A stretch of DNA of 64,000 nt from Cystobasidium ongulense (Eukaryota > Basidiomycota > Cystobasidiomycetes > Cystobasidiales > Cystobasidiaceae): contig BQUP01000002.1 of NCBI GenBank assembly GCA_022835595.1, forward strand, positions 1,474,534 through 1,538,533. Direction: 5' to 3'. Positions 934 through 8,062 of this stretch are shown one piece after another; the first letter of the stretch is position 1; each line of letters opens with the position of its first letter. The notes below the pieces were generated by a model, which saw only the letters and a program-made list of their open reading frames with translations, was not told where the DNA came from and did not search any database. Made by a program: the position numbers and the translations under genes.

Positions 934-2294
934 CTACAATCTTCCCTTTTCAACATCAAAATCCTTCTTCTCATCTTCTCCAGTACCAGTAAGAGTTTTA
1001 GGTAATTTATTGAATTCATTCAATTCAACTGAAGAGTCATTCGAAACGCTCTTTTCATCTCCAGCACTACTTTGGAATGCATCCAAATGTACAGTTCCAC
1101 TGCTCGAATCAGAGCAATAAGCTTTCATAGTCTGAGTTGAAATTTGTACTCCAGATTGATGCGAGTTCTTGCTATTGATCTTGGTTCGAGAAGAGCGGTC
1201 GCTCGATGAAGCAATGACACCAGATGTAGATGCAGAACTCCATCCTCTTGCTTCGTCCGACTCGCGCAGACTGAGGACCAATCGGCAGGCAAGAGAGGCA
1301 GCAATGATAGTGCAGAAGTTGGAGCCTGAGAAACGATTCGATGAGTGATGGGGAACATGAAGAGCTGGAGCGAGTAAACTAGACATACCAGGATAGCCCC
1401 GGAATGCTGAGTCGTTCTTCAAGGAAATAGCACCAAAGGCGAGGTTGGCAACGACGGAAAGACCGAGTCCAAGGGCGTACAGAGCGCCATGTCTGACGAC
1501 GAGCGAGAGGACTGGTGGTGTGGGAAGAGAGAGAGGAAGCTGAATAACTGCACTCGTTGAATATTGTCTGGAACAGCTGCAACCTACTTTCAGACTTGAC
1601 TCCGCCAGCAACACGGGTTTTAATTTGGTAAGCGCGATAAACGAGAAGACCAGTGGCGGTAAAGTCGAAGAGGACGGAAAGGATCTGCAGAGAGGAGCGC
1701 GAAGGATACGCGCGAGAACGTTAATTTGACTCAACAGGCGGATTCCTTCTTTCACTCACGCATCCTACGGTCATTGTAGGCCTGGAAATCATGTAAATGC
1801 ATGGGCCACTTCCTCCGGGGAACCGAACGACTGAAGTCGACAGGAACGAGATATGAGCAGCGCCCGTTATTTATGCACATGTTAAGTGACAACTAACCCT
1901 GTATATACGAGGCGACTAGCCAAGCGCCAACTGCGGACTGGGCTCCTTGCAGGGCTAGGAAGAATGCGAGGATCCATTTGTTTCGATTCCACTGAGTGGG
2001 ATAGGAGGAGAGGCGTCAGAGCGTGGATGAGGAACGTGGACCTGTATTTGGAGAGGGAGGGGCGACATACAATAGCTGGACAAGGAAGACAGTCAGTGAG
2101 GTGATCTGAGCATAACTAGACGAGTAAAGGGAGACCACCTTACCATAGCATCTGATCATGACAATGCCCGAGACTGTAGCTTGTATGAGCAGAGGGAGTG
2201 CATTGGCAAGGGGCATGAGGGTCCTTCTGCATTGTGCTTCTGTATAGTCGACATTGAAGCTGTGGGTGGCGGCGACTAGAATGAGCGGGCTTGA

Positions 2295-2375
<81 letters not shown>

Positions 2376-2601
2376 NNNNNNNNNNAATGTACAAGGCCTT
2401 GATGATGCTCCAGTCGGCCTTCCATATCCTCTTGTACTCTGCTGCCAGAGTGGATATCCAGTCATGCCAGTAGATGCAGTAGAGGCTGTGTCATGTCAAC
2501 GAGGTGAGCATGGGATGGACGAGGCAGAGTAAGGCAGTTACGCACCCGACATAGAAGACGAGCATGTACTGCCTAGTCTGTTCAGCGGTCGTGGATGCCA
2601 T
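934..2601 (-). CDS. DUF6533-type seven-helix membrane protein, copy 1
   Basis: Integral membrane protein of the fungal DUF6533 family; molecular function unknown. Exons (minus): 2601-2546, 2485-about 2385 (cut by an assembly gap), 2259-2154, 2075-2071 (5 nt), 1991-1898, 1830-1760, 1684-1588, 1511-1389, 1325-934. The start MASTTAEQTRQYM aligns with copy 2. The family motif WHDWISTLAAEYKRIWK is in exon 2, RCY-A-I-W spans the micro-exon, FPGGSGPCI follows, then RHGALYALG and a last helix ending ACRLVLSL. The C-terminal tail is hydrophilic, Ser-rich and probably cytoplasmic. The gap (2375-2384) hides the end of exon 2, where copy 2 has the conserved VNRY segment, so full length is unknown. A (GA)n tract lies in the next intron. 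Copy 2 at 5964-8062 is a diverged tandem paralogue; introns differ between them. Confidence 0.82.
2071..2075 (-). other. 5-nt micro-exon of DUF6533 copy 1
   Basis: Exon 3 ends in phase 1 (TGC TAT G) before a GT donor at 2153. The exon starting at 1991 begins in phase 0 with TGG. Between them, an AG at 2077-2076 is followed by CTATT and then GTATGT. The five bases complete Ala and add Ile, giving RCY-A-I-W, the usual family motif R-x-Y-A-[LIV]-[WY]. Flanking introns are 78 and 79 bp. Confidence 0.72.
2295..2375. repeat. (GA)n microsatellite beside an assembly gap
   Basis: About 80 bases of uninterrupted AG dinucleotides run straight into ten Ns (2375-2384). On the coding strand of DUF6533 copy 1 this is a (TC)n tract in an intron. 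Ten Ns is a placeholder size, so the true gap length is unknown. Confidence 0.95.
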
Positions 2602-3546
2602 GCTGGTGGGCGATGGAGATGGATAGAGGGAGGCACGTGACGGGGAAGAAGGAAGAAAAGAGAGCAAAGTAACAAAGCGAGGGAGTGGATGAAGAAGAGA
2701 GAAAGAGAAAAGAGTGAAAAGCTGAAACCAGATGGAGTCCGGAGATTGTTCATCATCTTCATCATCAGTCGATTCTCGTCAGTCATGCTCTGCTTTGACC
2801 CTTGCAATGCTGCTGCTCCTCCTTTCTCTCCCTCGCTCGCTAGCCAGGGCACACAGCGTAGACGTGAGATTAGACTAGATGAGATTCGTGCAGACGACAT
2901 GGTGGCCTAGCCCGCCGTCGCATCGAGTCATTCACGCTGCATTGCATCGACGCCCGTCCCAGGAATGCGAGCTTGCTTCACTCGCTCCCTCACCTTGAAG
3001 CCAGCAGCATGAACAGATACCGCACAGCTTCCCGTATATTAAACCCCACCATATGCTGTTCCTCGGACTCCATTCGCCAGCTCGCGACGCTTGCTCGCGT
3101 CTTCTAAATTGCCCTCCGAGTGTCTTCGCTCAATGCCGCTGCCGTTCTGCCCGCGCGAGGGTCACATGAAACTGCATGGCGACGGTGTGCGAGTACGTTT
3201 GAGGTATTGCATCAAGTGGAGGACATTGCAGTGCAAGTACTTGTAGGACAGAGCATAACTTGCGCTGTTGTACTTTACACGAGAAAGAGGCTGCTGATCA
3301 AGGCCTTGACTCGGGCGAAAGCGGTTTGAGATTCCTCCATCTTCATCGCAGTGGGTACTGCACATGTTCAGTCAACGACAAGTCGCATCCACAGACTGAA
3401 CAGCTGGATGGGGCAAGATCAAGCATGTTCGTACAAACGGAGAAATACGCATTGTCTACTCTGGCAGTCAAATTAAGAAAGAACACGAAACAAAGGCTTC
3501 TATATAAGCTGACAAGTCGAATGGCGGACGTCTCTTGCTTTGACAC
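2602..3546. other. intergenic region, no gene seen
   Basis: Lies between the start of DUF6533 copy 1 and the stop of the sulfite oxidase gene, both on the minus strand. It should hold the promoter of copy 1 and the 3' UTR of the oxidase. The ORFs present are short, overlap on both strands and show no motif. Confidence 0.5.
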
Positions 3547-5472
3547 CTATTCATCGACATCTCTAGGACCGTTTCGCTTGAAAAACTGTGCATACTCATC
3601 CAGATCCTGATACGGAAACTCTGTTGGCTTGGTGATGGGTGCAAAAGACTGGCGACGCTGTTCAAAGTCCTTGAGTCGTCTGCGCGTCTGTTCCCTCGTC
3701 TTGTTGACACTGTATATCTTGATGCGATGTGCCGACGACGTGACGTGCAGACCCCAGTTCCATGCGCTGCGTACTTCAAGAGGCTGAGTGTTGAGACTGT
3801 TGTCCCAGGTACGCACGACTATTTCGATCCATCCCTCGACATCGCACGGTAAATCCATCTGCCAGGTTCGCCAGGCGTACTTGTATTTCTTTGACATGTT
3901 CTCTGGAGGGCAGGCGTACCAAGAGAAGCCCCCATCAGCCGAGAGCTCGACCCGCTCTGGCCAGCGACCACCGCCGGAATAAGCCCAGCCCTTGACCTTG
4001 ATCTTGCCGTTGTGAATGACAATCTGTTTGGTGAGTGGTGACATGATGGCCGAGGAGACGGGCATCTCTTGAATCTGAATTCCATCGGTCCATCGCTGAT
4101 TGTGCTTGCCGACCTGCTGATTAAAGTAGAGGTATTCGCGCGACTGGACGGGCGCCATAGTGGGTGCTTTTAGAGCGTTGATTCTATAAAGCCACTTGAC
4201 GCTGCGTGCGCCGATATACCCCAAGACGACGGCTCGAACAGGGGCACCATGAATCTTGGGCAAAGGGTCGCCGTTCATCTCCCAAGCTAGGATGACCTCT
4301 TCAAGATTTACTTTCGACAGCGGAACGCTTACGGCGTAGTTCATAACCCTGTGTTGCTTGAAGTAGGTGTCTGCGCCAACGAGCTCGAGGTGCTTGCCTC
4401 CGTCGACAAGGCCGCCACAATGGTCGAGAACGCTTTTGAGAGTGACTCCAGTCCAGCGCGCTGTACCAATAGCTCCCTCCGCCCAGGGAGCGTTAATCAT
4501 CTCGTCACCCTCGCCAGGGTAGAGATTGATCTGCTCGATGCGGCGCGTTCCAGAGCATTGAATCGTGACGAGCTTATTAACTCGGGGGAACAGGCTTTCA
4601 TTTTGCAGATCCGCCAGTGTCAGTACTTTTGGCTGGGCGACTAGGCCACCGAGCTCAAGAGTCCACTTTGAAGGATCAATGTCTGGAATTCCTCCATGAT
4701 TTCTGACAAAGTGGAGGGGGTTGGGCGTGACGACCTGTGCGGTGGTGAGTCGCTTCGGAGATTCGCCATTGTAGGGGAACTCGAGAAGATGCAGCATATC
4801 TGGGTGCTTTTCTTTCAGGACAATCTCCCAAGACTCTTCAGGGAGATTGGCCAGATGGCCACCGACGGCTTTGTGCCACATCTTCCAGCGGACGCCTGGA
4901 GAGTAGTCAAGGGATTGGTTATCACAAGTTTAGATGGGCGCTTTAACGCACGTGCTCACTCACCTTCGAGTACCGGATTGGTGTCCGGGATGGGGCCAAG
5001 CTGAAAGTCTGGAGGATCTGGAAACTCGTTGGCCATGAGGATCTTGTGTGCGAGCGCTCGCTTCTCTGGACAGTTTTCCCATTCGATGTATCTGTTGAAT
5101 TTGGAAAGGCGGGGACATGTGTACAGTTTCAGCAAATGCACTCTAAGGGATAGTAAAGGCAACGCACCCATGCCAGCCCTCCTTCTCCTGTGCAAAAGAC
5201 TCGGCCGGCTTCACGTCCTGGAGGTTGATGTGCTTTACGAGCTCGAGTTCGTCGTCCACCGTGTCGACCACGGTCTTGTCGTATTCTGCGTTTGCGACGC
5301 CATCGTGGGCGGGATGATCGTCGGGGTCGTCGCCAGTCTGGTCGAGGATCTGGCTGATAGCGCCGGGCATGCCCTGCTCGAGGCTCCATTCGTTGGGGGG
5401 CTGCATGGCATGGTCGTGCTTTGACGAGTCCCGTCTAGCGGGCGCGCTTCCAGTTGTAGCAATAGCTGCCAT
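3547..5472 (-). CDS. sulfite oxidase-type molybdenum cofactor enzyme
   Basis: Exons 5472-5168, 5091-4964 and 4895-3547 give 593 aa. The Moco-binding domain shows HFVRNHGGIP and VTIQCSGTRR, where Cys (about residue 258) is the expected molybdenum ligand, then WAEGAIGTARWTGV and HGAPVRAVVLGYIGARSVKW. The C-terminal Mo-co dimerisation domain follows (GWAYSGGGRWPERVELSADGG, RTWDNSLNTQP). There is no cytochrome b5 domain, no FAD/NADH reductase domain as in nitrate reductase, and no clear mitochondrial presequence. The build resembles the haem-free plant-type sulfite oxidase, which in plants passes electrons to oxygen in peroxisomes. The tail (GPRDVDE) is not a PTS1. Predicted role is sulfite to sulfate oxidation; the substrate is inferred from family only. 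Confidence 0.9.
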
Positions 5473-5963
5473 TCTTGTCAGCTGGTGGGGAATAGGCGAG
5501 CGCGAGGACAGACGCTCAGAGCCGACAGTCAGTCTGTCACCTGTGGTGGGGTGTGGTTCGTCGAGATGGGAGAGTGCTCCTTGTCGTGCTCGCGGAGAGC
5601 GCAGTACCTCTGTCCTCTCTTTCCAGGCGGAGATCTATCTGATTGCGATATCGTCACTGGCAGCGTTGAAGATGCGATATGCAACCTATCACAGTCAACA
5701 GGGCCACGATAAGATTGCACTGGTCCAGCGACACGAAAGGCAGGGCAAGGCATGAAGCTAACTTACACCGTGCATGCTTTCCGTCTCCGCTTCCCACCTC
5801 ATGTCAGGGATCCCGAGAGACCCGTCTCAAACGTTTAGCTAATGTGGCAAAGGGAGACTCTGCACGTGTCGACGATTCCGGTGGGTGTCCTTCCGCCAGT
5901 CCGTAATTACAGCATGGTCCAAGCTATACAGTACCTCATCCATATACCACCCTTTTGTCAATC
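5473..5963. other. intergenic region, no gene seen
   Basis: Promoter side of the sulfite oxidase gene and 3' flank of DUF6533 copy 2. It contains only short mutually overlapping ORFs in different frames without recognisable features. Confidence 0.5.
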
Positions 5964-8062
5964 TCAAGCACCTTTCTCCAAGTCATTCGCTTCCATAGCT
6001 TTGATGACAGCTGAAACCCGCTTGATGCTCGCTCTCTTGATGGGTTCTTCTGTATCATCCTTCTCATCCAGTGTATTCCTCCCGTCCAATCCCATACCCT
6101 TCTCCTCCTCTTGAATATACTTCATATCAAACCCAGCGACAGTATCTCTGCTATCCATTTCAAGACCACTACCATCTTTCGTCAATACGCATCCACCATG
6201 TCCGTAGATTGGCGACTTGATTCTACTACCTTTTGGAAAAGCAACCAATGCAGTTTTACTATTACGTGATGCCCATCCACTCGCACTTCCACCACTCGCA
6301 GTAGGTCGAGCACTGTTCTCGTAGGTATAGCCTGCTCTGTAACCAGTTGTGGAATCGGCAATGGGTACCCGATCTGCTTCTGCATCTCGCTTGAGTGATA
6401 ATGCCATTCGACATGCCAGGATGGTATTGAACACTGTGCATCTGTATCAGCCGATCCAGTTAGTAGGTGTATATCAGTATATTTTTCTAAATGACTATAT
6501 GGATAATGTCTGGAAAAATGGCCCTACAAATTACCACCCAGATAGCTTCTGAAAGGAGTGTCCTGCTGAGCAGATCTAAGTTGGGACAAATTACAAAGGG
6601 ACAGGCAGGAATACATGGTCAGCATGACAAAGGTAGAGGGAAGTAAATGCAGAAAACTTACAAGCGAATCAAAGCCATATTGGCACAAACAATAATAGCA
6701 GTACCAAAAGCATAAAAAGTACCATGACGTATAAGACTTGAAAGGATTGTAGATTTCATTGTTTTTCCCATTGTTTTTCTAACTTGTAATGCTTTATAAA
6801 GTGTTAATCCTGTTGCTGCTAGATCGTAAATGAGTGCCATGATCTGCAGTTCCAAAAAACCAGGTTGTTATTGTTGTCAGTACTAAAGAGGTGTAAGGAT
6901 AGAGTAAAATAACTTAATCAGAGACTTACACAACCTAACATTACATTTGGTCGCGAGTTGTACGGAATGCAAGGTCCGCTTTCACCAGGGAAGACCATCG
7001 CTAAAAGTCGTAGAGATATATATTAGTTGCGAAAATCTGTATAGACCTGGATGAGAACGCATCGAATCCACTCACTCTTTACATAAGCGATGGAAAGCCA
7101 GCATGAAACCGCCATGTGAGCGGCGTGAAGCACCATCAAGATTGCAAGCACTGTTTTACTAGCTTGCCACTGTAATGAGGAAGCACAAAATACGATTAGA
7201 ACTAGACCAGGCGATGTCTCTCCGGCGAGGCGAGTATATTTGTTGAGTAACTTACTACAGCTATGAGAGGAAAGGATTGGTGCATCATGTCAGCCTTGAT
7301 GAAAACAGACAGATACCCTCAGACCAAAGACCGAACTCACCATAGCAGCGTAGCATTAACATGAACCCTACAGCAGCTTGGACGATCAAAGGAAGAGCAT
7401 TCTGCCATCCTAGCATATATTTAGTGCATTTCGAGGTGTTCCAGTCCATGTTGAATCTGTTGACGTCGTGAACAAGAGCCAAGTAGTTTAAGCTCGATTT
7501 GGGAATAAGTAAGTGTAAGCAACTTACCCTTGCAGAATGAAGATTGTCAATGCTAGCATAGTATATCGATTAACAAGGTACACGATCTTGACAGCTGTCC
7601 ATTTGGATTTCCAGATCCTATAACAACAAGCCAGGATTATGCGTTAGTCTGCTGGTAGAAACATGCACAAATCCGAGTAGTGTCTATACTACTTACTTTC
7701 TATATTCCTAATGCCACGAACGAGTGTCAGAGGGAGATTGGAACGGTGGAAACAAAGGCGTCAGCAATAAAGTACCCTCTTGTGCAGCAACCGACTATGG
7801 AATCACCTCATGAAGTGTAGCGAGCCAATCAAACCAGAAGATTGATGATAGTCTAGTATGAACAAACAGTCGCCATCTTAGTATTGTGCTCGTGTTACGC
7901 AAAGTTGGAGCGGAGGGCTGAAAGCGGTCCAAGCTCACGCCACATAGTATACCAGCCTGCATCAAAAAACATGCTGTAAGTGTCGCGTAGAAGCCAGCCA
8001 CCCAGGTCACGATGCTTTCCAACCTACATGTAACGTCGAGTCTCTTCAGCTGTCGCAGGCAT
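5964..8062 (-). CDS. DUF6533-type seven-helix membrane protein, copy 2
   Basis: Eleven exons (minus): 8062-8028, 7956-7939, 7852-7807, 7707-7697, 7617-7528, 7456-7341, 7260-7256, 7169-7076, 7000-6930, 6843-6662, 6441-5964. They sum to 381 aa in frame. The start MPATAEETRRYM is chosen because it aligns with copy 1; an upstream ATG at 8070 is in another frame. Family motifs: FWFDWLATLHEEYRKIWKSK, KIVYLVNRYT, RCY-A-V-W, FPGESGPCI, IYDLAATGLTLYKAL and RHGTFYAFG. Four exons are only 5-18 nt long. The intron at 6661-6442 (220 bp) is much longer than the others and may contain a further exon around 6545-6590 (a segment reading DTPFRSYLG, comparable to NDSAFRGYPG in copy 1), but I could not fit it in phase. 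Function unknown. Confidence 0.85.
7256..7260 (-). other. 5-nt micro-exon of DUF6533 copy 2
   Basis: CTGTA sits between an AG at 7262-7261 and a GTAAGT donor starting at 7255. The preceding exon ends TGC TAT G and the next starts TGG, so the five bases give Ala-Val and restore RCY-A-V-W. The position matches the micro-exon of copy 1; flanking introns are 80 and 86 bp. Confidence 0.75.
7697..7707 (-). other. 11-nt micro-exon of DUF6533 copy 2
   Basis: GAATATAGAAA lies between an acceptor ending TTAG and a GTAAGT donor. It supplies E-Y-R-K of the motif LHEEYRKIWK. In copy 1 the same residues (AAEYKRIWK) are encoded by one uninterrupted exon. Confidence 0.75.

Follow-up and report, generated by a model that had tools for sequence, protein, structure and literature searches.

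Putative five-nucleotide coding exons in two neighbouring DUF6533 genes of Cystobasidium ongulense, and further apparent tiny exons in the same genome

We analysed a 64,000-nucleotide (nt) stretch of the Cystobasidium ongulense genome (contig BQUP01000002.1, from an assembly of 19.77 Mb in 19 contigs), hereafter the window, which carries two genes of the DUF6533 family that each appear to contain a coding exon of only 5 nt. The original prediction had described the two genes as tandem; they are indeed neighbours on one strand, but a molybdopterin oxidoreductase gene of the same orientation sits between them (the features are collected in Table 1). The model of gene 2 is complete, with a coding sequence of 1194 nt and introns that are all GT-AG and 71-99 nt long. 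The model of gene 1 is incomplete upstream of its 5-nt exon, because a 10-N assembly gap and a long GA repeat (window 2299-2385) lie where an exon/intron boundary is expected. DUF6533 has been described as a basidiomycete-specific domain (PMC10949477), and nine predicted proteins of this genome, all of them matching the PF20151 (DUF6533) profile at E up to 1, make up the family considered here. The gene 1 protein scores 26.9 against a cut-off of 24.1, and a genomic search with the profile returned nine places, seven of them above the cut-off, genes 1 and 2 included. Searching the genome with the gene 2 protein revealed no further locus; this query recovered only six of the nine loci already known and might therefore overlook distant members. 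A simple hydropathy plot of gene 2 has seven peaks, two of which overlap each other. Four gap-junction entries considered as solved relatives gave weak matches (best E 0.057), which we took as chance.

The 5-nt exons read CTATT in gene 1 and CTGTA in gene 2. Their sequence, strand and coordinates were as predicted, and so were the bounding AG and the GTATGT and GTAAGT donors. In both genes the exon joins a phase-1 exon to a phase-0 exon, and 5 nt are required to restore phase. The joined reading is TAT G/CT ATT/TGG in gene 1 and TAT G/CT GTA/TGG in gene 2 (slashes mark exon junctions). Intron phases are the same in the two genes, phase 1 upstream and phase 0 downstream of the exon, and the two introns occupy identical alignment columns (column 101, phase 1; column 103, phase 0). 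The residues so restored belong to a motif, R-x-Y-A-[IV], that stands directly behind the third hydrophobic segment in the hydropathy plot of gene 2. The flanking introns had been put at 78-86 bp, which is right for both introns of gene 2 and for the downstream intron of gene 1, whereas the upstream intron of gene 1 is shorter. When compared with 53 ordinary introns of the family, the four flanking introns had donors at percentiles 28-94 and acceptors at percentiles 56-88, and all four contain a CTRAY branch site 18-30 nt from the end. CTRAY was found 12-50 nt from the end in 28 of the 53 ordinary introns, on which the splice-site matrix was trained, versus 18 of 352 overlapping exonic control windows. 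Both 5-nt exons combine canonical AG and GT borders and ordinary flanking introns with restoration of phase and residues. The splice sites, the phases, the motif and its agreement among paralogs can all be read directly from the DNA.

Of the seven other paralogs, six have the motif in one unbroken piece (C5 RTYAIWQKQKW, C4a QRASALFHD, C3 LRTWGFSG, C4b1 RASAVYGNS, C4b2 RASALYGNS and C11 QRAYYVSLR), and the residues supplied by the 5-nt exon are therefore known independently. In the seventh, C4c, it lies inside a 21-nt exon and the intron positions differ. The alignment is gap-free across the micro-exon. A longer form, R-x-Y-A-[IV]-W, had been proposed as the family motif; it is restored in both genes, but the W is present in only three of the nine paralogs.

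Chance was assessed with a purpose-written protein-to-DNA spliced aligner that has no minimum exon length, a micro-exon being defined as an internal coding exon of at most 15 nt. The profile used for genes 1 and 2 consisted of the seven other DUF6533 paralogs of the genome, and dinucleotide shuffles of the inter-exon stretch served as the null model (300 for the aligner, 5000 for a simpler test). With this profile the aligner selected both 5-nt exons. Barring the micro-exon acceptor lowered the best score by 29.1 half-bits in gene 1 and by 49.0 in gene 2, and the real score was reached by 0 of 300 shuffles of each gene. In the simpler test, an AG-5nt-GT arrangement encoding A-[IVLFM] was present at all in 72 of 5000 shuffles for gene 1 and 91 of 5000 for gene 2; with splice scores equal to or above the real ones, it was found in 1 of 5000 and 0 of 5000, respectively. 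The aligner shuffles, a profile that contains neither gene and the motif of the paralogs lend strong in silico support to the claim of a real exon.

These data argue that in each gene a real 5-nt coding exon very probably lies between two short introns of ordinary type and is included constitutively; the two introns would be spliced successively by intron definition. The exon would supply the last two bases of the Ala codon and one Ile or Val codon of R-x-Y-A-[IV]. Each flanking intron, with its own donor, branch site and acceptor, would be recognised by intron definition, a mode that such short, self-complete introns fit. Because just 5 nt separate the acceptor from the donor, the two introns probably leave one after the other, and once the first splice is done the 5 nt would be the mere edge of a large exon. 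Inclusion should be obligatory, because skipping shifts the frame. In gene 2, skipping is predicted to give CYVAS-stop, a stop after three further codons, and in gene 1 it would give 76 foreign codons and then a stop; retention of either flanking intron likewise runs into a stop. Inclusion in the mRNA, the order of splicing and constitutive use are what we infer from these sequence features.

Several points weigh against this reading. The aligner is prone to micro-exons, its best path holding one of at most 15 nt in 45 of 300 shuffles for gene 1 and in 174 of 300 for gene 2, at scores lower than the real ones. When coding was ignored, an equally scoring phase-restoring exon (2, 5, 8, 11 or 14 nt) occurred in 28 of 5000 shuffles of gene 1 and in 1 of 5000 of gene 2. 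The splice-site matrix derives from gene models that the same aligner produced for this same family, and hand curation of the seven profile sequences used gene 2 as one of its templates. Seven of the nine paralogs lack the two introns, so that genes 1 and 2 are the sole carriers. Finally, the frame can also be kept by joins that do without the exon; enumeration gave 6 such joins in gene 1 and 21 in gene 2, of which three contain a stop.

In a tree of the nine paralogs, genes 1 and 2 split together from the other seven with a support of 100. They are 42% identical to each other, and their intron sequences are no longer alignable. As the two introns are restricted to this pair among the nine paralogs, the micro-exon is, on this comparison, older than the duplication of the pair and not family-wide. 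The view that it is old holds in the first sense only, since it is carried by two of the nine paralogs. Either the two introns arose five bases apart in the ancestor of the pair, or both were lost in the other paralogs. A frameshift rescue, as proposed for Fusarium CYP621A (PMC12940212), would instead begin with one ancestral intron and a small loss at an exon edge, after which a cryptic exon from within the intron was adopted. Such a route needs one intron gain and not two, and the micro-exon restores exactly the residues of the family. However, no intermediate state is found among the sequences here, and the scheme is no more parsimonious for an 11-nt exon of gene 2 (see below) whose site is uninterrupted in gene 1. 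We consider this a possible but rather unlikely origin.

Regulated use of the exon is less probable still. In that case the exon would act as an on/off switch, inclusion giving the full membrane protein and skipping a frameshifted mRNA that is destroyed. The premature stops that follow skipping or retention of either intron in both genes are what a switch would need, and a regulated micro-exon has been reported for Trichoderma Xlr2 (PMC11121469). By contrast, the splice sites of all four introns fall in the ordinary range, and the comparable exons that beta-tubulin, EF-1alpha and a RAB11-like gene seem to have (see below) could hardly be optional. The switch is possible but unsupported, and we judge it unlikely.

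Insertion of both introns together as introner-like elements would fit their restriction to the pair and their absence from the other paralogs. However, an all-against-all comparison of 74 introns yielded no more than two matches of 12 nt (E up to 0.1), and the two flanking stretches had no second match in the genome in a DNA search that skips simple repeats and very common words. When introns of the other paralogs were compared with the window, two gave only short matches of 17-23 nt. The similarity to other introns of the genome that would mark an introner-like element was not seen in these comparisons; old introners could have decayed beyond recognition, and we hold an origin of this kind to be improbable. 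Least credible is a gene without the micro-exon, in which one long intron with a shifted site preserves the frame: the best exon-free paths (through the donor GTGGTC, 5 nt downstream, with the product RCYGKW in gene 1; through the acceptor GTCTAG, 32 nt upstream, with the product RCYVLIVFCASSLQW in gene 2) have exon lengths that agree with those of the aligner's best paths without a micro-exon, but the shifted sites are unlike between the two genes, the products destroy the motif, the scores lie 29.1 and 49.0 half-bits below, and the single-intron stretches, at 152 and 171 nt, have roughly double the median length of the training introns (76 nt). A 5-nt exon between two separately spliced introns is the reading that we prefer.

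Further tiny exons were found in the family. Leave-one-out profiles gave eight exons of at most 12 nt in five of the nine DUF6533 genes: 5 nt in gene 1, 11 and 5 nt in gene 2, 5 and 8 nt in C5, 12 nt in C4a, and 8 and 12 nt in C4c. Six shuffle tests spanning all eight exons gave 0 of 300 each, with lower-scoring micro-exons in 12 to 174 of 300 shuffles. Among undoubted introns adjoining a micro-exon, 8 of 13 have CTRAY 12-50 nt from the end. Some sites are weak: the donor that precedes gene 2's 11-nt exon lies at percentile 1 of ordinary donors, and the donor after the 12-nt exon of C4a and the acceptor after the 12-nt exon of C4c both lie at percentile 7. Both introns that flank the 11-nt exon are missing at these positions in gene 1 and the other seven paralogs. 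A ninth candidate of the aligner, an 8-nt exon in C11 with a GTGCCG donor and an unclear frame, was dropped, as were a 6-nt terminal exon of C4a and the gene 1 exons next to the assembly gap. Elsewhere in the alignment, at columns 81-85, the intron positions of five paralogs (in L011, L012, L014 and L015) crowd within a few codons, some of them one nucleotide apart in phase, as if by intron sliding or repeated gain.

As a background sample we took 24 housekeeping loci (18 plus 6), using human templates; where a gene is named otherwise than its template, the name is presumptive. The aligner proposed 26 internal exons of at most 15 nt (20 in the 18 loci and 6 in the 6 loci, some of 0-3 nt). Four were kept as firm (beta-tubulin 11 nt, EF-1alpha 9, BiP-like 7 and RAB11-like 5) and two as likely (10 nt in L030 and 10 nt in L041). 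The remaining 20 were dropped as unsupported, mostly for lying at protein ends, behind long introns or at weak sites; these include the 5-nt AACAA in L038, 5- and 8-nt proposals in L049 and a 9-nt proposal in L042. Firm cases are found in 4 of 24 loci, a figure that takes in 8- and 1-nt exons found later in beta-tubulin. In that gene, a 9-nt stretch with the start codon is followed by internal exons of 11, 8 and 1 nt, and 0 of 300 shuffles reached the real score. The putative 5-nt exon of the RAB11-like gene was judged against what we take to be the RAB11 sequence, the alignment template having been RAB1A. As a separate exon of this size, it would count in favour of the 5-nt exons of the DUF6533 genes.

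Exons as small as these are reported to have been validated elsewhere. They include 1-nt exons in plant APC11 and VPS55 (PMC4674806, PMC8831610) and in Fusarium CYP621A (PMC12940212), and adjacent 5-nt and 12-nt micro-exons in rice Os08t0562700 that were confirmed by reverse-transcription PCR (RT-PCR) (PMC8831610). The statement in the original prediction that 5 nt is close to the lower limit of splice definition was too strong, because published exons reach 1 nt and this genome holds further apparent exons of at most 5 nt beyond the pair (in C5, the RAB11-like gene and beta-tubulin). The rice gene and the plant micro-exons described with it resemble the present case in having a 5-nt internal coding exon and adjacent tiny exons, the rice ones having been missed by annotation; unlike that plant gene with its RT-PCR evidence, the exons here belong to a basidiomycete-specific family and are read from the genome (PMC8831610). 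In CYP621A, too, a frame-restoring tiny exon in a conserved motif was inferred from phase between canonical flanking sites, and the logic is the same, with an intronless family member as the length marker there and uninterrupted paralogs here. The Fusarium exon differs in that it is 1 nt long, lies in an ascomycete P450, is kept in many orthologs and is covered by RNA reads (PMC12940212).

Within the basidiomycetes, whose genomes have been described as intron-dense with frequent small exons (PMC2897884), the P450 genes of Phanerochaete chrysosporium have many exons of 2-10 amino acids (PMC1184071). They are likewise a multigene family with tiny exons and short introns, but a different family, and the shortest exon given for them is 6 bp as against 5 nt here. 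Arabidopsis APC11 shares the steric problem posed by the 5-nt exons, although its exon is 1 nt, from a plant and experimentally shown. Its authors favour intron definition with successive removal of the two introns, and they point to a potato exon of 9 nt for which the second intron is the first to be spliced out (PMC4674806). SNB1 of mushroom-forming fungi has the same DUF6533 domain and is a predicted seven-helix membrane protein; the part of its published account drawn on here names no micro-exon (PMC10949477). In the titles and abstract openings of the open-access literature, with no search aimed exactly at these subjects, we found nothing on DUF6533 micro-exons, a basidiomycete 5-nt exon or a 1-nt exon of beta-tubulin. 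Because the literature shows tiny exons but none of these cases, the pair is, as far as seen, a fresh example of an already known phenomenon.

The broader interest lies in the recurrence of tiny exons over the genome and not in the pair alone. We lean towards the view that the splicing machinery of this genome copes with ultra-short coding exons of essential genes constitutively and as a matter of routine, and that micro-exons arise through repeated, lineage-specific, closely spaced introns and are not ancient relics. Gene finders and read mappers easily overlook exons of 1-12 nt, with the result that genes containing them tend toward broken-frame predictions; the DUF6533 family, and even beta-tubulin, are at risk of misprediction. 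Recurrent 5-nt, and perhaps 1-nt, exons in essential genes would make this genome a natural system in which to study how spliceosomes working by intron definition deal with introns that almost touch, and its side-by-side paralogs with and without the same micro-exon would serve to study how such exons arise.

Table 1. Features of the two DUF6533 genes and further micro-exons (positions in the window unless a locus is named; slashes mark exon junctions)
Feature	Position	Strand	Remarks
DUF6533 gene 1	934..2601	-	start codon to stop codon in open frame of last exon; assembly gap inside
Gene 1 exon upstream of micro-exon	2144..2289	-	ends TGC TAT G; 5' boundary uncertain (repeat and assembly gap; two alignments disagree)
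Gene 1 upstream flanking intron, 68 nt	2076..2143	-	GTAAGG...CAG; CTRAY branch A 18 nt before end
Gene 1 micro-exon CTATT, 5 nt	2071..2075	-	closes Ala codon G/CT, then Ile ATT
Gene 1 downstream flanking intron, 79 nt	1992..2070	-	GTATGT...CAG; CTRAY branch A 25 nt before end
Gene 1 exon downstream of micro-exon	1898..1991	-	begins TGG AAT
DUF6533 gene 2	5964..8062	-	12 exons, 397 amino acids
Gene 2 exon 4, second micro-exon GAATATAGAAA, 11 nt	7697..7707	-	LHE/EYRK/IWK; donor of upstream intron weak (GTGATT)
Gene 2 exon 6, upstream of micro-exon	7341..7456	-	
Gene 2 upstream flanking intron, 80 nt	7261..7340	-	GTGAGT...TAG; CTRAY branch A 30 nt before end
Gene 2 exon 7, micro-exon CTGTA, 5 nt	7256..7260	-	closes Ala codon G/CT, then Val GTA
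Gene 2 downstream flanking intron, 86 nt	7170..7255	-	GTAAGT...CAG; CTRAY branch A 27 nt before end
Gene 2 exon 8, downstream of micro-exon	7076..7169	-	
C5 successive micro-exons CCTGC (5 nt) and TGCCTGCG (8 nt)	L011	-	also a GC-AG intron (GCAAGT) shortly past the motif
C4c successive micro-exons AAAACTGG (8 nt) and CATCGATTAAAC (12 nt)	L015	+	motif in 21-nt exon
RAB11-like gene, putative 5-nt exon CAACC	L052:892-896	+	completes GVGKSNLLSRF; 0/300 shuffles
EF-1alpha, 9-nt exon CGTCGTCGT	L043	-	HVN/VVV/IGHVD; 0/300 shuffles
BiP-like HSP70, 7-nt exon TCATTGG	L041	-	proposed by aligner, kept as firm
Beta-tubulin, apparent 1-nt exon G	L033:998, genome G000:C6	+	only high-identity copy among matches listed

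The smallest candidate is the apparent 1-nt exon of beta-tubulin. The 8- and 1-nt exons of this gene come from an extended aligner, an earlier version of which had placed a 30-nt exon there. The last bases of the 8-nt exon are ACT G, and the next clear exon opens with A CAA TGT, so that the Gly of IVHLQTGQCGNQ requires one further base. Within the 512-nt stretch, the sole AG-N-GTR candidate with a length of 1, 4, 7, 10 or 13 nt is the G in ...TTCTGCAG/G/GTATGT. Among 5000 shuffles, some AG-G-GT was present in 476, an equally good one in 1, and any phase-restoring exon that was equally good in 5. The G apparently restores both frame and motif between a canonical AG and GT; a rival explanation is that the assembly lacks one base where the 8-nt exon ends. 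The intron before the G is 239 nt long with CTRAY 36 nt from its end, and the intron after it is 272 nt long with no CTRAY nearer than 154 nt to the end. With the 1-nt exon in place, the beta-tubulin protein reads through from MREIVHLQTGQCGNQIG.

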